Below are positions 28,661 to 46,032 of a DNA stretch of 51,135 nt, in pieces (position 1 is the first letter of the stretch; each line of letters starts with the position of its first letter). A program made the position numbers and the translations under genes. Origin of the DNA: Dehalococcoidia bacterium (GTDB lineage Bacteria > Chloroflexota > Dehalococcoidia > SM23-28-2); assembly GCA_020356025.1 (NCBI GenBank), contig CP070630.1, positions 1,400,278 to 1,451,412 of the forward strand, written 5' to 3'. The notes under the pieces are model-generated. The model did not search any database. It was not told the DNA's origin and saw only the letters and a list, made by a program, of their open reading frames with translations.

Positions 28661-28771
28661 AGCACGAGGTATTCCATCTGCAAGTCGACTCGGCTGCCTT
28701 CCCAGGCTGGGACGGAGCGGCCCTTCTTGGCAAGGGTGAAGAGTGGGGCCTTCACCGATGGGGGTGTACCA

Positions 28772-31027
28772 ATGTTTAGTGGACGTGGACTGCTCTCCGG
28801 CCTGGTTATAGCCGTGGCCATCGCTCTGGCTGCTGTGCTAGTTGTGAGGTTCGTGTTGCTCGGCCCTTCTGCCGTCCAGGCCTCTTTCACTACTCTCTCT
28901 GTCATATCGGGTACGGTGGAGGTTCGGGATGAAGGCGCAGGCGAGTTTCGAGCGGCTGAGGACGGCGAGACCCTGGATGTGGGGGATACCGTGCGCACGG
29001 CGGCGGACTCCCGTGCACTGATCACTTTCTTCGAGGGCAGCACCCTCGAGATGGAGCCGGAGACCGAGGTGAGTCTGGAGAAACTGGAGGGAGAGGAGGA
29101 AGGTGGCTTCTTCACCAGGATCGGCCAGTCGATTGGCGTGACCTGGCATCGGGTGGTCGAGTTCACAGACCCTCGCTCTGCCTACGAGGTGGAAACACCC
29201 GCCGGCGTCGCTGCGGTTCGAGGCACTCTCTTTCAGACTGTGGTGGCGCCCGACGGGACTTTCAACGCGGACGTTCTCAAGGGACTGCTGGCTGTACGTG
29301 GGGGAGGCGTCCAGAGGACAGTAGAGGCAGGTTGGGGCACGCTAGTGAAGCCTGGACAGACGCCCGTGGAGTCGTTCCGGTTACCCCCGCCGCCGAGTAC
29401 GCTGGAGCTGAGGCTGAGCGGGCCTGCTGATCTCTTGGCGGTGACCCCCCTCCTGACCGGCGTGGGCTACTACAATGGCTATCCCATCAACCAGGAGCCT
29501 GGTACAACGATGACTGAGCCGGGCGAGGAGCCTCAGGTAGTGCTGTTCCGACGGGTGATCGATGGCACTTACGAGGTGTTCTTGTTTGGCATAGCGCAAG
29601 GCGATTACGATCTGTACGTCAAAGGGCGGACGGATGGAAACGTGGTCTGCCACAGACACATCGAGGGCGACATCGAGGAAGACTGGCGGTTGGTGGTTGA
29701 TGTTGACATGGAGGTCGATGAGGAAGGGCGGATACTAGGGTGCACCATCGGCGAGCCTCGCCGAACCAGCCGTGAGCCGATGGTTGCGCTGGTGGTGCGG
29801 GAATCCCTACAGGCCCGCCTCCCGACGCGGTTCGTCGCCGCACTCTCGCCTACGCCGATACCCACACCCATGACCACGGCGACCTCGCCCAGCCGTTCAC
29901 CCACACCCACGCCGACGCTCGTGCCACAGGTGCTGGCTGTGGTGGCGGGACCTACTGTTATCCCATCGCCCACGCCTACACCCACGCCTACACCTACACC
30001 CACTCCCGCACGCACACCAACGGGCGAATCCCTGGTCACACCTACACCCGCATTCACGTTCAAGCCTACGCCCGCGGCGACCGCCACGCCTACGCCCACG
30101 CCTACACCGACACCCACGCCTACACCCACACCCACTCCTGCACGCACACCAACAGGCGGATCCGACGACACGCCTACACCGACACCCACACCGACACCTA
30201 CGCCTACACCCACACCTACACCCACACCCACACCTACGCCTACGCCCACGCCCACACCCATACCCGTGGCCGACGTCAGGATCGACAGCCAGCAACTGGT
30301 CGGCCCGCCCACGGACATTGATGTGTGCGAGGACTTGGTGGTCTCGGTGATGAAGGTTCTCCACAACAATGGACCCTACGGCCCCGTCGACGTCAGCATC
30401 TCTGCCAGTGCCTCCGCTCCAGCCGACTGCACAGCCGCTCCAGGTGCTGGCAACCTCACGTCGGCCAGCCTGCCTGTCAGCGCCAACGTGGTCGTCGATG
30501 AGACCTGGACCATTCACTGCGACGCTCGCTCCCAGCACGTCTTCTCCTTCGATAATCAGATAGCCACCGAGGATCCCGGGGTGATCGACCCGAATCTGGG
30601 TAACAACTTCGCCTCCACTCAACTGGCCGTTGACGTGTGGGCTCTGGCCGACCTGAACATGCTCAATCAGTATGTGGATTACCCGCCGGACGGGAGCACG
30701 ATACCCGCGAGAGAGAACGTGGAGGTTATGGTGCTAACCGTGATCCGGAACGATGGGCCCTTCGGCCCAGTCAACGCAGTGGCGCAGACCATCGTGACGT
30801 GGCCGGGCGCTTGTCAGGTCAGTCCTCCGGACGGCCATACGGAGCAGATCTCGGGTCTGCCGGTAGGCGTGAACGTTACTCTGAAAGCGCCATTCATTGT
30901 CTTGTGCGAGCCTGGCCAGCACAAGTTCGAGTTCGACAACACGATGGACGTCGAGATGCAGCACGTGCGCGATCCGGACGCTGGGAACAACACGGCTCAC
31001 ACGGAGCTGACGGTGACGGCGTCCTGA
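28772..31027 (+). CDS. Membrane-anchored FecR-domain protein with Thr-Pro linker and two C-terminal repeats
   Basis: A 751-residue envelope protein. An uncleaved membrane helix or signal lies at residues about 8-30. A FecR-type domain follows at about 45-175 ([41 protein letters not shown]). Residues to about 350 are unassigned beta-rich sequence, then a linker of about 140 residues made mostly of Thr-Pro repeats. The C-terminus holds two tandem domains of about 125 residues, each with an HNNGP(Y)GPV or RNDGPFGPV core and a GNN end, resembling CARDB/DUF11 adhesin-like beta domains. No sigma or TonB gene is adjacent, so a FecIR system is not implied. The ATG at 28772 begins just before the membrane helix; the ribosome site is weak. 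A surface-stalk role is inferred. Confidence 0.78.
29847..30265 (+). repeat. Low-complexity Thr-Pro coding repeat
   Basis: About 420 bp of imperfect six-base units of the form ACNCCN coding for Thr-Pro, broken by short ARTPTG spacers that occur twice. It is an intragenic linker. On the opposite strand it reads as an artificial Gly-Val repeat frame. Confidence 0.9.
30266..31024 (+). repeat. Two tandem beta-domain repeats in the FecR-domain protein
   Basis: Two units of about 125 codons, 30266-30640 and 30641-31024. Each runs from an ADxxxxxQ strand through NNGPYGPV or NDGPFGPV, a Cys-containing strand, a GLPVxxNV strand, a CxxxxQHxFxFDN strand and a final D-GNN-T. They are diverged copies at protein level. 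Confidence 0.7.
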
Positions 31028-35399: not shown

Positions 35400-36143
35400 A
35401 TGGTGGAGGTTGCGGCACGCTACTACATGACGCGGAGCAGGCTGGAACGCTGGCTGGCCGAGCTGGAGCAGCCGGAGGGCGAAAGCATTGCTCTGTACGT
35501 CAAGCCGGGCCAGTTGTCCCCTTACCTGGAATCGATAGAGCGCGAATATGGCAGCTGGCTGCACGAAATGGGGGAGCTTCCCGCTAACCTTGCTGAGTCC
35601 GAAACGGGCCTTGTCCTATTCTGGAGCGATGACCCCAAGTATGTGCTCTTGCCGCCTTTTCCCATAGACCTGAACCAGTTCTTTCCGGCCTGGGATGCTT
35701 CCTATCTGCGGACCCTGCTGGACAAGAGATACCTACTGGGGGTCGTACTTCTGAGGCTGGGAGGGTACTCGGTCGGCGTCTTTGAGGGCGACCGGCTGCT
35801 CACGTCGAAGACGGGCACCAGGTTCGTGAAAGGGAGGCATAGGGCCGGCGGCCAGTCGCAGCGGCGCTTCGAGCGGAGGAGGGAAGAGCAGAGCCGGGAG
35901 TTGTTTGACAAGGCGTGCTCGGTTGTGACAGCCAAGTTCGCCGATTACGAAAAGCGGCTCGACTACGTCTTCCTGGGCGGCGACAAGCTGACCCTGCGCT
36001 CCTTCTTCAAGAGATGCGAATACCTGCAGGGGCTTGCCGACAAGACGTTGGGCAGAGTCCTGAACGTGGCCAAGCCCAGGTACGAGGCTCTGCAAAACGC
36101 TCCCTCGCTGATCTGGAAGACGCGGGTGTTCGTACTTCGGTGA
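35400..36143 (+). CDS. VLRF1-type (Vms1/eRF1-like) peptidyl-tRNA hydrolase
   Basis: A 247-residue protein resembling bacterial Vms1-like release factors of the eRF1 superfamily (acVLRF1 type). The signature is the RFVKGRHRAGGQSQRRFERR stretch, where Gly150-Gly151-Gln152-Ser153 sits at the position of the eRF1 GGQ catalytic tip, within the RNase-H-like core. The basic region that follows and the YVFLGGDKLTLRSFF strand also fit. These proteins release nascent chains from peptidyl-tRNA on split large ribosomal subunits during ribosome rescue. The ATG at 35400 has only a weak site (GGGAAG directly before it). It lies 41 bp after the acyl ligase gene. There is no RqcH or other rescue gene nearby. 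Confidence 0.78.
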   Translation: MVEVAARYYMTRSRLERWLAELEQPEGESIALYVKPGQLSPYLESIEREYGSWLHEMGELPANLAESETGLVLFWSDDPKYVLLPPFPIDLNQFFPAWDASYLRTLLDKRYLLGVVLLRLGGYSVGVFEGDRLLTSKTGTRFVKGRHRAGGQSQRRFERRREEQSRELFDKACSVVTAKFADYEKRLDYVFLGGDKLTLRSFFKRCEYLQGLADKTLGRVLNVAKPRYEALQNAPSLIWKTRVFVLR

Positions 36144-37108: not shown

Positions 37109-39424
37109 CTACCCGCCGAGCCCCGCGAAAGCCGCCTCCGCGGCCCGGATCGTCCGTTCGATGTCCTGCTCGCTGTGGGCCAGCGAGAGGAATCCCGCCT
37201 CGAACTGCGAGGGCGCCAGGTAGACGCCGTTCTCCAGCATCGCCCGGAAGAAGCGCGCGTACTTGTTGCTGTCGGACCTCTTGGCTGAGGCGTGGTCGAT
37301 GACCCTCTCGGCGCTGAAGAAGGTGCAGAACATGGAGCCAACGCGGGTCTGAAAGACGGGCGTCCCGGCAGCCTCGGCCGCAGCGCGCAGGCCATTCGCC
37401 AGCCGCGCCGACTTCTCCTCGAGGCGCTCGTAGACCCCGGGCTGAGCGAGCAGCTTGAGGGTCTCGATGCCAGCGGTCATGGCCAGGGGGTTGCCGGAGA
37501 GGGTGCCCGCCTGATACACGGGGCCCAGAGGTGCCACCATCTCCATGATCTCCCTGCGGCCACCGTAGGCTCCGACCGGAAGGCCGCCGCCGATGACTTT
37601 ACCCAGACAGGTTAAGTCGGGCGTTACGCCATACAGGGCCTGGGCTCCACCATAGGCCAGCCGGAAGCCGGTGATCACTTCGTCGAAGACAAGGAGTGCT
37701 CCCTCCGCCTTGGTCATCTCTCGCATGCCCTCCAGGAAGCCAGGCTCGGGCGGTATCACCCCCATGTTCCCTGCCACGGGCTCGACGATCACGGCGGCGA
37801 TCTCACCGCGGTTCTCGCTGAACAGCCTGTCAACCGCCTGCAGGTCGTTGTAGGGGGCTACTAGCGTGTCCTGGGCGGCAGCCTCTGGCACGCCGGCGCT
37901 GTCAGGCAGGCCGAGGGTGGTCAGCCCGGAGCCCGCCCGAGCCAAGAGGAAGTCGGCATGTCCGTGGTAGCAGCCCTCGAACTTGACGATCTTGCTCCTG
38001 CCTGTGAAGGCGCGGGCCAGGCGCAGGGCGCTCATGGTGGCCTCGGTGCCCGAGCTGACGAAGCGCACCATTTCGATGGAGGGCACTGCCTCCACCACTC
38101 GTTTGGCCAGTTCGGTCTCCAGCGCGGTGGGGGCGCCGTAGCTGATCCCTCGCTCCGCGGCCTCTTTTAGAGCGCCTACCACCTGCGGATGGGCGTGGCT
38201 CAGGATCAGGGCACCCCAGGACAGCATGTAGTCAATGTAGCGCCGGTCGTCCGCGTCGTAGATATAGGGACCCTCCCCTCTGGTAATGAAGAGCGGCTCT
38301 CCTCCCACGGCACGAAAAGCCCTTACGGGGCTGTTGACGCCGCCAGGCATGTACCTTTGGGCCTCGGAGTGGAGGCTCTGCGACCTGCTTGTCGTTATCT
38401 CTTCGGCTGGGGCGAAGTACGTGGGTCGCGTCTTCTTGTATTCCTTGGTGCTGAACAGGATGATGTAGTCGCTGACACCTGTCTCCTGAGAGATCTCCCG
38501 GGCGATGGCCCGGCAGTTCTCTCTGCTTCTGGCGTGGATCATCGTGAAGAGGTTGTAGGGCCAGTCGGGATAGGTGAGGCGCTGGTAGCAGTGGCTGACC
38601 TGGGGCAGAGAGGCGGCGAACGTCGCGATTCTCTCGATGCTGCCGTCCGGCACCCGCCAGGCAACCATGCCATTGGCGACATAACCTGCCTCACGGTGGT
38701 GCAGGATGGCGGCAAAGCGACGCAGCCAGCCGGCGGCCTTGGCCTCTTGCAGCCAGGCAAGCACTTCGTCCTGGCTTACCCGCAGGCGATCGGCCACGCC
38801 CGCGAAGGGCTGAGGGACGATTTCGATATCCTCCTGCAGTTCGCGGATGAAGGCCCTATCGCGGGCGTTGGGGATGGGGGCAGGGCTGGGCCGAGTCCCT
38901 TGGGCGGGCCCGGCGGGCAAAATGTCTCCCGCACTCTCCATATCCAACTGCATGCCGATCTTGAAGACCCGCAGCGCCGGAAATGGGCGGTAGGGATGGC
39001 TGCCTGCCTGGTCAACCAGCGCCTCGACAGTAGCCTCCAGATCCTCGTGTGGGGGCACGGCCAGGGTGAACCAGAGGTTCCAGGTGTGGTCGCGCTGGTA
39101 GTTGTGGCTGACCCCTGGATGGCGGTTGATCGCGGCCGCTGCTCGATCGACCTCGTCCTGAGGGGCCTGCATGGCCACCAGAGTACTCTTGTAGCCCAAG
39201 GCGGCCGTGTCAAAGATGGCGCTGATCTGGCGGATGAGCCGGTTCTTCCCGGGGTTTTTGAGACGTCGCACGCGCGCCAGCACTTCTTCCTCGGGCAGTC
39301 CGAGCTTCTCGCCGATCGCTGCGAAGGGCCGCGCGGTTGGGGGGAGGTCCTGCTGCAGGATGTCGAGCAGGCGGCGATCAACGATGTCCATCTGCTCAGC
39401 GGTCGTCTCTTCGGCTTTTGCCAT
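37109..39424 (-). CDS. hemL: AhbA-AhbB siroheme decarboxylase fused to HemL (GSA aminomutase)
   Basis: A 771-residue three-part fusion. Residues about 12-160 and 186-337 are two Lrp/AsnC-type siroheme decarboxylase halves (AhbA- and AhbB-like, as in NirDL proteins). Each has a winged-helix start and the signature [13 protein letters not shown] (His107) or [16 protein letters not shown] (His278). They remove the C12 and C18 acetate carboxyls of siroheme. Residues about 345-771 are full-length glutamate-1-semialdehyde 2,1-aminomutase, with [10 protein letters not shown] at its start and the PLP lysine in [13 protein letters not shown]. It makes 5-aminolevulinate. The frame is continuous. The ATG at 39424 with GAGGAG nine bases upstream is preferred to a longer frame that overlaps ahbC. 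It is the last gene of the heme operon, joining its first and a late step in one chain. Confidence 0.92.
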
Positions 39425-39426
39425 CG

Positions 39427-40713
39427 TCAGCGTCTCCTCGGAGCGGGGAATAATTGGGACGGCCCCGCTGATTCCTCCTGTACCGGCACCGGCCATTTGG
39501 CCGCCTCCTCGGCTGCCGGCGTCCCCGGCGCAATGCCGATCTCCTCGTCGGTCAGGTAGCAGGCCGGGTCAGGAGCCAGGGAATCGCCGAAGTAGCGCTC
39601 GGCCCGCACCCGCAGGTTGCCGTTGCACACGTCCAGCCATTTGCAGACCCGGCAGCGCCCCTTGAGGTGCGACTTGCGGACTTTCAGCACGCGCATCACC
39701 GGATCGCTGGTATCGCTCCAGATTTCGGCGAAGGGGCGCTGGCGAACGTCCCCCAGGGAGTGGTGCCAGGAGAACTGGTCGACGTGGAGGTGCCCCAGCG
39801 GATCGATGCTGGAGACGGCGATCCCCGATTGGTTCCCGCCATTCCAGAGCAGCATCTGATGGACCTCCTCCGCTCGCCGGGGCTGCTCCTTGTGCACCCG
39901 CATGTAGAGGTAGGCGTTATCGGCGTGGTTGTCCACGGTGAGGATGTCCTTCTCGATACCCCGCGCGTGGAGGTCTTGGGAGCGCTGGAAGATGTAGTCC
40001 ACCACCGCCCGTGTCTGGCTGGGCTGCAGGTCGAAGCGGCGCATCTTATCGCCTCGCCCGGCATAGGCGAGGTGATAGACGCAGACGCGGGGGATTCCCT
40101 CCTCCTCCGTCAAGTCGAATATGCCTGGCAGCTCGTCGACATTCATTGCGTGGACGGTGAAACGCAGGCCGACGGCGATGCCTGCATCCTGGCAGTAGCG
40201 GATGCCCTGCAAGGCCTGCTCGAAGGCCCCCTTCTTGCCCCGGATCTTGTCGTGCGTTGCCCCCACGCCGTCCAGACTGACGCCCACGTAGGAGAGGCCT
40301 GCCTCCTTGATCCGCTCTGCCATCTCCGGGGTGATCAGGGTGCCGTTGGTAGAGAGGACGCAGCGAATTCCCTTGCTCACGGCGTGGGCCGCTAGGTCGA
40401 ACAGGTCCTCCCGCATGAGGGGCTCGCCGCCGGAGAAGAGGAGGACGGGCACCTCGAAGTCGCCCAAGTCGTCGATCAGCCGCTTGCCCTCGGCTGTGGT
40501 CATCTCCCCTGATAGGGGCTTGTCTGTGGCGTCGGCGTAGCAGTGGGCGCAGTACAGGTTGCAGCGGCGGGTCAGGTTCCAGACCACGATGGGCTTCTTG
40601 TCCTGCGAGTAGTGAAGCAGGTGAGATGGCCCCTCGGACGTGAGGCGGCCGTAGCGCAGGGGGTCGCCGGGGGTGACCGTGCCGCTCAGCAGACGGGAGA
40701 CAGCGAGCATCAA
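39427..40713 (-). CDS. ahbC: AhbC-type radical SAM 12,18-didecarboxysiroheme deacetylase
   Basis: A 428-residue radical SAM/SPASM-like protein. The CxxxCxxC motif is Cys51, Cys55 and Cys58 ([15 protein letters not shown]), followed by [13 protein letters not shown]-terminal Cys set ([14 protein letters not shown] and a later Cys) binds an auxiliary cluster. The sequence fits AhbC, which removes the C2 and C7 acetate groups of didecarboxysiroheme to give iron-coproporphyrin III. NirJ of heme d1 synthesis is the closest alternative, but no nir genes are present and ahbD is adjacent. It starts in a 4-bp overlap with ahbD and ends two bases before the ahbAB-hemL start. Confidence 0.9.
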
Positions 40714-41816
40714 CCGCTCTCCTTCAGACGAGCCGCTTGTGGCAGAGGCGGCGGCTCGTAGACGCAGGAGGGCTCTTCATCCAGAAAGTCGCTGGTCATG
40801 CCGTACGCTCTCGCCCGACAGCCGCCGCAGACGCGCTTGAATTCGCAGCGGCCGCACTTGCCCTGGAGAAGCTCGGGGTCTCGCAAGGCGCTGAAGACCT
40901 TCGCGCCTTCCCAGATCTCCTGAAGCGGTTGCTCCCGCACGTTCCCCGCTACCAGCGGCAGGTAGCCGCAGGGGAAGACCTCGCCCTTGTGCGAGATGAA
41001 GCAGACCCCGGTTCCGCCCAGGCATCCCTTGGTCATGGCGTAAAGGTCGCTGGCTCGCTGGCGCTCCTGGCTGGGCGGCGCTTGTCGCTTCTCAGCCACC
41101 GTCCGCTGGCGGACGATGCGGAAGTAGTGAGGGGCGCAGGTGGCCTTCAGCTCCAGCAGCCCTTCCTGGTCCTTGTCGTAGAACCAGTTGAGCACCTCCT
41201 CGTACTGGTGGGGGGAGATCATCTGCTCGTCGGCGATCTCCACGCCGCAGCCGACGGGCACCAGGAGGAAGATGTGGAGGGCATCGGCTCCCAGGGAGAG
41301 GGCCAGGTCTAGAATCTGGGGCAGTTCATCGATGTTGTGGCGGGCCACGGTGGTGTTGATCTGCACGCTCATCCCCTGGCTGCGCAGGTGGCGGATGCCC
41401 TCCAGCGTCTGAGCAAAGGAGCCGGGGAGAGCGCGGAAGGTGTCGTGAGTCTCTGCTGTAGCCCCGTCCAGGCTGATCGCCACCCGCCGAATACCCGCAT
41501 CCACGATGCGCTGCGCCATTGGCTCATCGATGAGGGTGCCGTTGGTCGCCAGGGCGACGCGCAGTCCGCTGGCCACCGCATACTCAGCGATCTCGAAGAT
41601 ATCGGGCCGGATCAGAGGCTCGCCGCCCGAGAGGATAAGAATAGGATTGCAGAAGGCCACAATCTGGTCGATGAGTCCTTTCGATTCGGCGATGGTCAGG
41701 TCATCCGGCACCAGCTCGTCGGCCACGTCGATGCGGCGGCAGTGGACGCAGCGCAGGTTGCAGCCTGCGGTTGTCTCCCAGAAGATGAGACGAGGCAGGA
41801 ATTCCGGCATCATCAT
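40710..41816 (-). CDS. ahbD: AhbD-type radical SAM heme synthase
   Basis: A 368-residue radical SAM protein with Cys19, Cys23 and Cys26 (TAGCNLRCVHCRRI), the LILSGGEPLIRPD motif, and a SPASM-type C-terminus (CLGGTGVCFISHKGEVFPCGY, GKCGRCEFKRVCGGCRA and a final Cys). AhbD converts iron-coproporphyrin III to heme b by oxidative decarboxylation of two propionates. The start is one of three consecutive ATG codons (41816, 41813, 41810), four to ten bases after the hemB stop; a longer frame from 41846 would overlap hemB. It overlaps the ahbC start by 4 bp. Confidence 0.9.
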   Translation of the reverse strand: MMMPEFLPRLIFWETTAGCNLRCVHCRRIDVADELVPDDLTIAESKGLIDQIVAFCNPILILSGGEPLIRPDIFEIAEYAVASGLRVALATNGTLIDEPMAQRIVDAGIRRVAISLDGATAETHDTFRALPGSFAQTLEGIRHLRSQGMSVQINTTVARHNIDELPQILDLALSLGADALHIFLLVPVGCGVEIADEQMISPHQYEEVLNWFYDKDQEGLLELKATCAPHYFRIVRQRTVAEKRQAPPSQERQRASDLYAMTKGCLGGTGVCFISHKGEVFPCGYLPLVAGNVREQPLQEIWEGAKVFSALRDPELLQGKCGRCEFKRVCGGCRARAYGMTSDFLDEEPSCVYEPPPLPQAARLKESG

Positions 41817-41820
41817 CCCT

Positions 41821-42864
41821 TTACTCGCCCAGCCAGCGGGCGACATCCCTGGCGAAGTAGGTGAGGATCATATCTGCCCCCGCCCGTTTGATAGCGGTGA
41901 GAAGCTCGAGAGTCACCCGCCTCTCGTCGATCCAGCCGCGCTGGGCTGCCGCCTTGACCATGGCGTACTCACCGCTAACGCTGAAGGCGGCCAGGGGGTA
42001 GTCGAAGGCCTCGCGCACCTGGCGGATGATGTCCAGGTAGGCCAGGGCAGGCTTGACCATCACCATGTCCGCGCCTTCGTCGATGTCCAGGGCCACCTCT
42101 CGCAGGGCCTCGCGGGCATTGGCCGGGTCCATCTGATAGCCCTGCCGGTCGCCGAACTGAGGGGTCGACTCAGCCGCCTCGCGGAAGGGGCCGTAGAAGG
42201 CGGAGGCGTACTTGGCAGCGTAGGAGAGGATGGCCACCTGGGTGAAGCCGGCCGCATCCAGTGCCATACGGATGGCGGCCACCTGGCCGTCCATCATCGC
42301 GCTGGGGGCCACCACGTCGGCCCCGGCGGAGGCGTGGGAGACAGCCACCCGCGCCAGGACCTCCAGCGTCTCGTCGTTGAGCACGCGGTCGTCCTCCACG
42401 ATGCCGCAGTGGCCGTGGTCGGTGTACTGACACATGCAGATGTCGGTGATCACCGCCAGCTCCGGCACAGCCTTCTTGATGGTTCGGATCGCCTGTTGGA
42501 CGATGCCGTGCTCGTCGAAGTTCTCGCTGCCGATAGCGTCCTTGACAGCGGGGATGCCGAAGAGGATCACGCCTGGGATGCCCAGGCGGGCGACCTCCTC
42601 CGCCTCGGCCGGGAGAAGGTCAAGCGACCAGTGGTAGGTGCCGGGCATGGAGTCGATTTCCTCTCTGATCCCCTGGCCGTGAACGACGAACAGCGGATAG
42701 ATGAGATCGTCGGCGGCAAGACGGGTCTCCCGTACCAGGCGGCGCACGCTAGCGAGCCGCCGCAGCCGGCGGGGCCGGTGGAGAAGTGCAGCCGCCATGT
42801 CTTCGGCCTCCTCCGTCTCCTTGCGAAGCCGGAGCCTGTTAACAGTCTGCTCAGCGCTCATCAT
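41821..42864 (-). CDS. hemB: Porphobilinogen synthase (5-aminolevulinate dehydratase)
   Basis: A 347-residue TIM-barrel enzyme joining two 5-aminolevulinates to porphobilinogen. The zinc-type site [14 protein letters not shown] with its three Cys is present, as are the Schiff-base lysines in [17 protein letters not shown] and [12 protein letters not shown]. The N-terminus is about 20 residues longer than usual; an internal ATG (codon 23, before [12 protein letters not shown]) could be the real start. As written, the start overlaps the cobA/hemD stop by 14 bp. It lies just upstream of ahbD. Confidence 0.95.
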
Positions 42865-44386
42865 CTCGCTCTCTTTCGGTCACAGCGGTGGCAATGGCTT
42901 CTACCAGCCCGGCGATGGTGTGCTCCCTGGCCACCACATCCACGCGGATGCCCAGCCGCTTCGCTGTCCTGGCCGTGACCGGCCCGATGCAGGCCACCAG
43001 GCAGCGTGACAAGACGTTGTCTGGTGTTGTGCCTTGGAGGCCGGCCACCAGATTCCGTACCGTCGACGAGCTGGTGAAGGTGACGATATCGATCTGGCCG
43101 TCCTCAAGCAGGGCTTTCAGTTCGTCCGGCGCGCCGACGGCCAGCGTTCGGTAGGCGGTGACCTCATCGACCGCTGCTCCCTTGTCTCGCAGGGCCTTTG
43201 TTAGTTGCTTTGACGCCCGCTCGACCCGAGGGAGAAGGATGCGTTGGCCTGCCACATCACCGATCCCGGTCGCGATCTCTTCCGCCAGGTAGACCTGGGG
43301 CATGTAGTCGACCCGAAGGCCGTATCGCTGGAGGGCCTGGGCGGTGGCCGGGCCGATGGCGGCGATTTTCGGTCTCGCCAGGGCCTCGATATCCGTTCCC
43401 TTTTCGCTCATTCTGTCCACAAGAGCGCGCACTCCGTTGGCGCTGGTGAAGACCAGCCAGTCGTAGGTGGGAAGCTTGGCGATGGCGTCGTCCAGTGAGG
43501 TCATATCCTTGGGCGGGGCGATCTCGATGGCAGGGTACTCCAGCGGCTCTGCCCCCATCTCCCGCAATCGCTCGGAGAGGGCGCTCGCTTGCTCCCTCGA
43601 GCGGGTGACCAGAACTCGCTTGCCGAACAGTGGCTTTGTATCGAACCAGCGTAGCTTCTCCCGCAGAGCCACCACCTCGCCAACGACCGTCACCGCTGGC
43701 GGCTTGATGTCGGCCCCTCGCGCCTTTTCGACGATGTCGGCCAGGGTGCCGGTCACCGTCTTCTGGCGCGCTTCTGTTCCCTCTTGGACGATGGCTACCG
43801 GCGTGTGAGGGTCTCGCCCGTGCTCGATCAGCTTGGCGACGATCTTGGGCAGATTGCCGACGCCCATAAGGATGACCAGGGTGCCCACGCCTGTGGCCAG
43901 CTTCTGCCAGTCTAGGCTGGAATCGGCCTTGGTGGGGTCCTCGTGGCCGGTGACCACGGCGAAGGAACTGGTCTGATCACGATGGGTGACGGGTATGCCG
44001 GCGTAGGCCGGGGCGGCGATGGCACTGGTCACTCCCGGCACTATCTCGAAGGGCACTCCTGCCTCCGCCAGGGCTTCTGCTTCCTCGCCGCCGCGGCCAA
44101 AGAGGAAAGGGTCGCCTCCTTTCAGGCGCACCACGACCTTGCCGGCGAGCGCCTTTTCCGCCAGGAGGGCGTTGATCTCCTTCTGGGGGAGGGTGTGCCT
44201 TCTAGGCCTCTTACCAACGTCGATCATCTCGCATTCCTGCGGGGCCTGCCTGAGCAGGGCCGGGCTGACCAGCCGGTCGTAGACGACCACATCGGCCTTC
44301 TCTAGGCAGGCCAAGCCCTTCACCGTGATCAGCCCCGGGTCGCCGGGGCCGGCTCCCACCAGGTAGACCAGACCCTTACTGCCCAC
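42851..44386 (-). CDS. cobA-hemD: Uroporphyrinogen-III C-methyltransferase / uroporphyrinogen-III synthase fusion
   Basis: A 511-residue fusion. Residues 1 to about 245 are the SAM-dependent methyltransferase CobA/SUMT, with [15 protein letters not shown] at the N-terminus and the [13 protein letters not shown] motif near residue 85. Residues about 252-505 are HemD, beginning [15 protein letters not shown] and containing the TSANGVRAL and [10 protein letters not shown] segments. HemD makes uroporphyrinogen III and CobA methylates it at C2 and C7 to precorrin-2, committing the tetrapyrrole to siroheme. The CobA-HemD fusion is known in several phyla. It overlaps hemC by 11 bp and hemB by 14 bp. 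Confidence 0.95.
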
Positions 44387-45317
44387 CTGTCACCTCGCGC
44401 AGAATCTGGGCCGCGCCCTGGCTCAGCATCTTGTCTGCCAGGCGTCGACCGATGCCTTCGGCTTGACGAGGAGAGCCGCTCATGCTGTCGCCGATCACCC
44501 TCGTGCCGTCTGGATCTGCCACCATGCCCTGGAGATTCAGGCGTCCATCGGATACTGCCGCGTGAGCGGCGACGGGCACGGCGCAGCCGCCGCCCAGAGC
44601 GGAGAGGAAGGCTCGCTCGGCTCTGACGGCTCTCTCAGTGGGGGAGTGATTCAATGGCTGGATCAGTCCTATCACCTCTTCGTCGTTCTCCCTCACCTCG
44701 ACTGCCAGGGCTCCCTGCCCCACGGCGGGCAGCATGAGCGCCGGCGGCAGGTACTGGCTGATGGCCGAGGTGTGGTGGAGACGTATGAGCGCCGCCGCAG
44801 CCAGAACCAAGGCGTCATAGCCTCCGCTCTTCAGCTTCCTCAGGCGGGTGTCGACGTTGCCCCGAACATTCTGAATCACCAGATCGCTACGATGGGCCAG
44901 AAGCTGAGCCCGCCTGCGCGTGCTTCCGGTTCCGACGACGGCTCCTGCTGGAAGATCGTCCAGTGTTGGGCCGGAACGCGAGACCAGCGCGTCTCTGGCG
45001 TCCTCACGGCGAAGGACAGCTCCTATCTTCAGGCCCGTTGTCAGTCGTGTCGGCATGTCCTTCAGGCTGTGCACGGCCAGGTCGATCTCGGCCGCCAGGA
45101 GCTTCTCCTCGAGCGCTTTGACGAAAACACCCTGGCCGCCGATGGTGGCCAGGCTAGCATTGGGCTGGACATCGCCCTCGCTTCGTATTTCCCGTAGCAG
45201 CCACGCTCTGTCTGGATGAAGGGAAGAGAGCATCTCTTGCACTGTCTTGGCCTGTATCCTGGCCAGTCGGCTACCGCGTGTGCCGATGAGCAGGGTGTGC
45301 CGGTTTGCCGTCAACAT
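44376..45317 (-). CDS. hemC: Hydroxymethylbilane synthase
   Basis: A 313-residue porphobilinogen deaminase that links four porphobilinogens into hydroxymethylbilane. The N-terminal LLIGTRGSRLARIQA, the AVHSLKDMPT loop, GTGSTRRRAQLLAHR and the cofactor Cys in LGGGCAVPVAAHA are all present. The start is taken at the ATG at 45317, which matches the usual family N-terminus; a frame from 45350 adds eleven residues and overlaps the upstream gene. It overlaps cobA/hemD by 11 bp at its end. Confidence 0.94.
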   Translation of the reverse strand: MLTANRHTLLIGTRGSRLARIQAKTVQEMLSSLHPDRAWLLREIRSEGDVQPNASLATIGGQGVFVKALEEKLLAAEIDLAVHSLKDMPTRLTTGLKIGAVLRREDARDALVSRSGPTLDDLPAGAVVGTGSTRRRAQLLAHRSDLVIQNVRGNVDTRLRKLKSGGYDALVLAAAALIRLHHTSAISQYLPPALMLPAVGQGALAVEVRENDEEVIGLIQPLNHSPTERAVRAERAFLSALGGGCAVPVAAHAAVSDGRLNLQGMVADPDGTRVIGDSMSGSPRQAEGIGRRLADKMLSQGAAQILREVTGGQ

Positions 45318-45330
45318 CCCTCCTCGGCCG

Positions 45331-46032
45331 TCACGCTTCGCTCTGCTCATCCTGGAGGGACGGGCTCTTCCGCCGCCCGTGGCCTCTAGTCTTCAGGGCA
45401 TGAGCGGCGAGGATGTCGTTTGCCAGTCGTTCCGCCTCTCGCCGTTTCCCTTGTTTGAGCAAGGTCAGTATTTCTGAGTCGGCCAGGGCTTGCCAGAAGC
45501 GGAGGCGGGCCCGACCCGCAAGCTCTCTGCCGACGCGGTCTCTGAGACCTCCTGCTATCTCCAGGAAAGCGCCATATTCGCGGCCAAAGCGGGGCTCGAG
45601 TTCCTGGCGCAGGCGAGCCGAAAGGGCGGGGTCTTGCCCGCCAGTGCAGACGCTGATCGTCAGGTCGCCCCTTCGCACCACAGAGGGCACGAAGAAGTTG
45701 CAGCGATGGGGATCGTCGACCACATTGATCAGAAGGCTTCTCTCTTGGGCCTCCTGCCACACGTCTCTATTCACATCTGGGTCGCCCGTTGCGGCGACGA
45801 CAACAAAAGCGCCCTCCAGGTCTCCCTGGTGGTAGCCTCGAGGGCGGTGTTCGATCCGGTTCGCTTGCAGGAGCGCCCTTAGCTTATGAGTCAGGCGAGG
45901 GCTGATCACCACTACTCGCTCCGCGCCTGCCTCCAAGAGGGACTCCACCTTGCGCTGCGCTACCTCGCCTCCTCCGACCACGACACAGCGTCTGGCTGCC
46001 AGGCCGACCAGGTTGATGGGATATGACCTCAA
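45331..46032 (-). CDS. sirC: Precorrin-2 dehydrogenase / sirohydrochlorin ferrochelatase-type protein
   Basis: A 233-residue protein like the N-terminal part of CysG, yeast Met8 and SirC. The NAD site is VVVGGGEVAQRKVESLL. The conserved NVVDDPHRCNFFVPS and TGGQDPALSARLR segments follow. It oxidises precorrin-2 to sirohydrochlorin and may also insert iron, which cannot be decided from sequence. It opens with TTG at 46032, and no ATG or GTG gives a full N-terminus; similar proteins start just before this position. It is the first gene of the heme operon. The C-terminal tail is short, basic and unlike a methyltransferase. Confidence 0.92.
   Translation of the reverse strand: MRSYPINLVGLAARRCVVVGGGEVAQRKVESLLEAGAERVVVISPRLTHKLRALLQANRIEHRPRGYHQGDLEGAFVVVAATGDPDVNRDVWQEAQERSLLINVVDDPHRCNFFVPSVVRRGDLTISVCTGGQDPALSARLRQELEPRFGREYGAFLEIAGGLRDRVGRELAGRARLRFWQALADSEILTLLKQGKRREAERLANDILAAHALKTRGHGRRKSPSLQDEQSEA

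Follow-up and report, generated by a model that had tools for sequence, protein, structure and literature searches.

Introduction

Fusions of ahbAB, the genes for siroheme decarboxylase, have been described in Archaea, and in five Methanomicrobia assemblies an ahbAB-ahbD fusion likewise joins an extra heme enzyme to ahbAB (PMC11237513, available portion). The same portion of text records HemA-HemB, HemC-CobA-HemD and CobA-HemD, which are heme-pathway fusions too but with other partners, and its account of fusions does not name an ahbAB-hemL fusion. In the available portion of PMC3004389, hem and ahb-nir genes share clusters and ahb-nirDH is fused. In AhbA/B of Desulfovibrio desulfuricans, the residues of the HXYXR motif line the central cavity and have been placed at substrate binding and catalysis, and the R102A variant of AhbB is inactive (PMC4145669, available portion). 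Among the papers listed by searches of the open-licence literature, none described an Ahb-HemL fusion. A complex of HemA with HemL is reportedly the subject of one study.

Here we describe a gene of a Dehalococcoidia bacterium in which AhbA, AhbB and HemL are encoded in one frame. The window analyzed is a stretch of 51,135 nucleotides (GCA_020356025.1, contig CP070630.1, positions 1,400,278 to 1,451,412); its own genome is called G000, and two congeners, G001 (a second species, represented by a metagenome assembly) and G002, were used for comparison.

Results

The fusion gene is located at 37109..39424 on the minus strand of the window and comprises 771 codons that are open throughout, with a predicted product of 84 kDa. 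A sequence-only reading of this DNA had proposed a continuous 771-codon AhbA-AhbB-HemL frame without naming its strand, and this was borne out: no stop interrupts the frame, and all three domains score over their NCBIfam cut-offs. The AhbA half occupies residues 16-162 (38939..39379, minus; NF040708, 257.3 bits against a cut-off of 140), the AhbB half residues 193-335 (38420..38848, minus; NF040707, 250.8 bits against 125), and the HemL domain residues 345-767 (37124..38392, minus), for which both TIGR00713 and NF000818 were over cut-off and GSAM structures could be aligned. The HemL domain had also been called full-length, in agreement with an equivalog match to TIGR00713 (NCBIfam) that spans residues 348-767 at 634 bits against 527.3. 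In the Pfam scan of the fusion, Aminotran_3 comes after two NirdL-like HTH stretches and two AsnC-like ligand-binding stretches, and no additional domain was revealed; a NirD, NirL, NirG or NirH model was not among the 25 matches listed for the fusion. In G000, the second-best HemL-like match is 42% identical and scores 265 bits, versus 1733 bits for the fusion.

Both signatures named in that reading were found, HNYQR in the AhbA half at residues 107-111 (39106-39092) and HCYQR in the AhbB half at residues 278-282 (38593-38579), and across 16 aligned AhbAB sequences neither HXYXR motif varies at its H, Y or R. In the HemL half, the motif LGK609VIGGG (K609 at 37600-37598) aligned to GSAM, and the gating-loop sequence aligned with solved GSAM; K609 is presumably the PLP lysine, and we take the loop to have its GSAM role. 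Judged by these motifs, both enzymes look catalytically intact. AlphaFold gave ten-residue pLDDT means of mostly 79-96 over the AhbAB half, except at the N-terminus and the linker between the halves, while pLDDT in the HemL half was mostly below 50, the alignment holding two HemL rows; because the HemL half is poorly modelled, the model is uninformative on the packing of the parts and on junction geometry. The fold was built from alignment A3; alignment A2, made of AhbAB-only and HemL-only rows, was set aside, as it misplaced AhbB under HemL.

The list of open reading frames extends the frame to 795 amino acids, with an alternative ATG at 39496. The start at 39424 is the better choice, because the ahbC TGA (39429-39427) is 2 nt ahead of it, a Shine-Dalgarno-like GAGGAG (39434..39439, minus) is found 9 nt 5' of the ATG within the 3' end of ahbC, and G001 and G002 have comparable starts at the equivalent position after ahbC. 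The G002 contig ends 28 codons into this AhbA-like frame.

That the fusion would be confined to a single assembly had been named as grounds for rejecting it, and this was not the case. The closest relative, G001 (Dehalococcoidia bacterium isolate CSMAG_2713, JAUWYP010000004.1), carries a frame of the same 771 codons, aligned without gaps at 84% identity. The dN/dS between G000 and G001 is 0.24 over the whole gene, and by domain it is 0.28 for AhbA, 0.26 for AhbB and 0.20 for HemL, which is thus the most strongly constrained of the three. The junction has a value of 0.13 (just 21 codons, with few sites) and the AhbA-AhbB linker one of 0.98 (27 codons, likewise with few sites). The junction itself is about nine residues long (residues 336-344; 38393..38419, minus). 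In-frame ATG, GTG and TTG codons are absent between residues 325 and 358 in both species, and codon 343 is ATA in G000 and GTC in G001. An AGGAGG precedes codon 345 (ACA) by 5 nt in G001 and may, we infer, be left over from the ribosome-binding site of hemL. Taken together, these data demonstrate that the triple fusion is genuine and conserved across two species.

The genes 5' of the fusion, all on the minus strand, encode an AhbC-like radical SAM enzyme (39427..40713), an AhbD-like radical SAM enzyme (40710..41846), HemB (41821..42864; Pfam, NCBIfam), a CobA-HemD fusion (42851..44386; Pfam, NCBIfam), HemC (44376..45350; Pfam, NCBIfam) and a precorrin-2 dehydrogenase resembling the CysG N-terminal part (45331..46032; NCBIfam). 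AhbC is the best model for the first of these, at 563.6 bits against 521.5 for NirJ1 and 425 for NirJ, although below its own cut-off of 650, and AhbD is the best model for the second, at 492 bits just below a cut-off of 500. The context of a siroheme decarboxylase is therefore present, with ahbC-like and ahbD-like genes, precorrin-2 dehydrogenase and SUMT. A promoter and terminator scan returned one promoter-like site where 1.1 were expected and eight terminator-like sites where 3.8 were expected, and none was used. Beside the heme operon, in G001 as well, is a gene for an acVLRF1-type release-factor homolog (window 35400-36143), and a FecR-domain protein with long threonine-proline repeats is encoded elsewhere in the window (28727-31027).

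Searches for proteins combining Ahb and HemL found the unbroken fusion in G000 and G001 only, among the genomes sampled and the matches listed. Unbroken full-length matches were obtained in 2 of 61 relatives, in 2 of 393 sampled genomes of the class and in 1 of 400 genomes of the phylum (the window's own), the latter two counts being among the matches listed. There were none in the 26 genomes behind the named loci, nor in 299 genomes of Bacillota, the phylum of Paenactinomyces guangxiensis. These genome samples overlap, and the class, phylum and Bacillota searches scored two or three candidates per genome. Among 80 named AhbAB loci, the best 80 of at least 592 confirmed in a search with an AhbAB alignment, HemL shares the AhbAB frame in one (L117, which is G001). 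Matches spanning both domains in 13 of the 299 Bacillota genomes were considered as further AhbB-HemL or AhbAB-HemL fusions and rejected; their frames are long but contain 1-4 stops, as do the near end-to-end matches in G935, G855 and G850. A separate HemL ORF is present in all 20 translated Bacillota-search loci (the 13 spanning ones and seven more), of which G935, with one TAA, comes nearest to a fusion. Long frames in G155 (806 aa), G061 (970 aa) and G248 (734 aa) proved not to be AhbAB fusions. These data indicate that the AhbAB-HemL fusion is rare. At another locus (L226 4562-6022, G792), ahbD and ahbA matches fall in one 487-codon frame, a possible ahbD-ahbA fusion.

The choice of HemL as partner had been thought odd, and gene order in other genomes contradicts this. 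In the mapped loci of the class, ahbAB is mostly a single gene and hemL is often behind hemB or elsewhere. An ahbA-ahbB-hemL string nonetheless recurs: in 19 of 20 Bacillota-search loci, selected because they span both domains (13) or have a high score or long frame (seven) so that the count is not a frequency, ahbB is immediately 5' of hemL on one strand, with ahbD before ahbA, and two Chloroflexota genomes have the string as well. Since the string recurs, hemL is simply the next gene. In one of the Chloroflexota genomes (G060), fused ahbAB is followed by TAG, an A and then the hemL ATG, and in the other, of a different class (G410), ahbA, ahbB and hemL are separate genes with the ahbB TGA in frame with hemL. 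The Bacillota-search locus G935 has a one-frame ahbAB, its single TAA and then an in-frame hemL. Comparison of these arrangements suggests that the fusion most likely arose through loss of the ahbAB stop and the hemL start between genes that were already neighbors.

A quick HemL tree was calculated from 97 rows, after removal of four duplicate loci, of sequences identical to others and of HemL matches below 400 bits or 90% coverage. The fused pair groups with L138 (phylum unknown) and seven rows that belong to its phylum but not to its class, at an SH-aLRT of 83, which is below the mark of 95, while its own order lies elsewhere. Because the pair groups away from its own order, the history of its HemL may not be vertical descent and may involve transfer or deep divergence.

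The sequence-only reading was also correct that the operon has no hemA, but it treated HemL as the entry step of the pathway; HemL catalyzes the second step of the C5 route, and HemA is the entry. No HemA over the cut-off of 209.55 bits was found anywhere in G000 (best 17.7 bits) or G001 (best 27.6 bits), the HemA of G002 used as query gave no match at E 0.01 in either genome, and a search of seven genomes, both of these among them, found no ALA synthase at E 1e-20. The congener G002 has the order cysG-like, hemA, hemC, cobA-hemD, hemB, ahbD, ahbC and the start of the AhbA-like frame, and hemA is likewise between the cysG-like gene and hemC in L109, L110, L112, L128, L131, L133 and L137. Where G002 has hemA, the cysG-like gene of G000 and G001 overlaps hemC, in the window by 20 nt (45331-45350). 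A hemA is also missing from this position in L173, L174 and L180; the genome of L180 (G312) has it adjoining hemL instead, and relocation of hemA therefore occurs in the class. Completeness is 82.7% for G000 and 92% for G001, and incomplete assembly is a possible reason for the missing hemA.

A strong HemL, taken as a match at E 1e-125 or better, is present in 135 genomes of the class that are at least 90% complete, and a strong HemA, for which the threshold was E 1e-40, is missing from 22 of them. Family f38 accounts for 19 of the 22; outside it, 3 of 114 genomes lack a strong HemA, including G001. In the f38 genomes concerned, HemA matches are weak and range from E 1e-8 to 1e-24, the poorest of them at background level, which suggests that some of these genomes encode a glutamyl-tRNA reductase of divergent sequence; one HemA match in this family, at G057:C1:601219-602094, is 31% over query residues 95-417. 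G003 (L200, L201), a genome of the window's own family, has two hemA genes over cut-off. G029 (L050), which is 80% complete, has ahbAB and hem genes, and no HemA over cut-off, HemL-like match above 45% identity or ALA synthase match was found in it. In G000, the segment G000:C1:1170373-1170474 matches HisH residues 168-201 only, at 82% identity, and a full hisH is present at the contig end.

Discussion

We consider it probable, at roughly three in four, that stop and start loss produced a bifunctional AhbAB-HemL protein in which each half is active and the two are tethered without channelling. The AhbAB half would carry out its usual reaction, from siroheme to 12,18-didecarboxysiroheme, and the HemL half would convert GSA to ALA as usual. 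In an operon with hemL directly 3' of fused ahbAB, the stop of the one and the start of the other would have been lost, and the tether would fix expression at 1:1 and co-localize the halves. Because HemB, HemC, CobA-HemD and the CysG-like enzyme act between the two reactions, no shared intermediate would be channelled; the reactions are not consecutive, and co-expression and tethering are therefore favored, tethering for co-expression being the simplest function. Enzyme activity, the order of events and the benefit of tethering are what we infer here from the genes. Counting against the bifunctional reading, AhbC and AhbD are below their equivalog cut-offs, and hemA was found in neither fusion genome.

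The foremost alternative, albeit an unlikely one, is a regulatory fusion, in which the Lrp/RAM-like AhbAB would respond to siroheme, didecarboxysiroheme or heme by changing the activity of HemL, so that a late intermediate sets the ALA supply. It would suit the short junction and the absence of a second strong HemL from G000. Some AhbA/B proteins copurify with heme or product, and the activity of M. barkeri AhbA/B shifts with the redox state of bound heme; however, the Desulfovibrio enzymes are unaffected by reducing agents (PMC4145669, available portion). No regulatory reason is needed when the fused genes recur as operon neighbors, and the fusion has no additional Pfam domain, nor was HemA, the usual control point of the pathway, found.

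Two further explanations are each somewhat less probable. One is that the frame yields ordinary AhbAB and HemL as two proteins, by cleavage or from an internal HemL start. The AGGAGG of G001 could be read as pointing to such a start, but neither species offers an in-frame start codon around the junction, the ATA at codon 343 is replaced by GTC in G001, and initiation at ATG359 would truncate the conserved MPGG region. The other is that the HemL half is fed by a GluTR-independent source of GSA or another C5 precursor, for which 4,5-dioxovalerate is a candidate related compound, and that the fusion is part of a rewired heme entry.

It is quite improbable that the HemL domain no longer acts as a GSAM or has taken on a different role, as a scaffold or in another aminotransferase reaction. 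This would account for the missing hemA, as neither G000 nor G001 has a hemA over cut-off or an ALA synthase match at E 1e-20, but the domain scores far over its equivalog cut-off, retains the PLP-lysine motif and is under stronger constraint than the two others. An assembly or sequencing artefact is very unlikely as the source of the fusion and can be given almost no weight, since the frame, even if G001 is a metagenome assembly, is repeated in two species at 84% identity with equal length, the same junction lacking a start codon, and purifying selection (dN/dS 0.24).

The bifunctional protein is thus a fusion of known enzymes that is accounted for by gene order. The joining of a siroheme decarboxylase to GSAM adds a domain architecture that did not appear among the papers listed by the open-licence literature searches, and its likely formation steps are on display across genomes, with separate genes first, then genes divided by an in-frame stop and finally a single frame. 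Since HemL stays constrained, the fused HemL is presumably in use, and this leaves a gap open to testing, because neither GluTR nor ALA synthase was detected in the two genomes of the genus that carry it. The ahbA-ahbB-hemL string of the Bacillota-search loci and some Chloroflexota has the same genes in the same order, but with hemL separate and stops between. Compared with the fused AhbAB/NirD-like siroheme decarboxylase (4ch7, 4czc), residues 18-339 of the fusion align to residues 7-322 of a 342-residue chain (E 3e-71), but that protein lacks the C-terminal HemL. Compared with HemL/GSAM (2gsa, 3fqa), the match is full-length (E about 1e-172 to 1e-171) with the catalytic motifs kept, and the fusion adds about 345 AhbAB residues N-terminal to GSAM. 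In the Methanomicrobia fusion, the partner of ahbAB is the heme synthase AhbD and the proteins are archaeal (PMC11237513, available portion), whereas here the partner is HemL.
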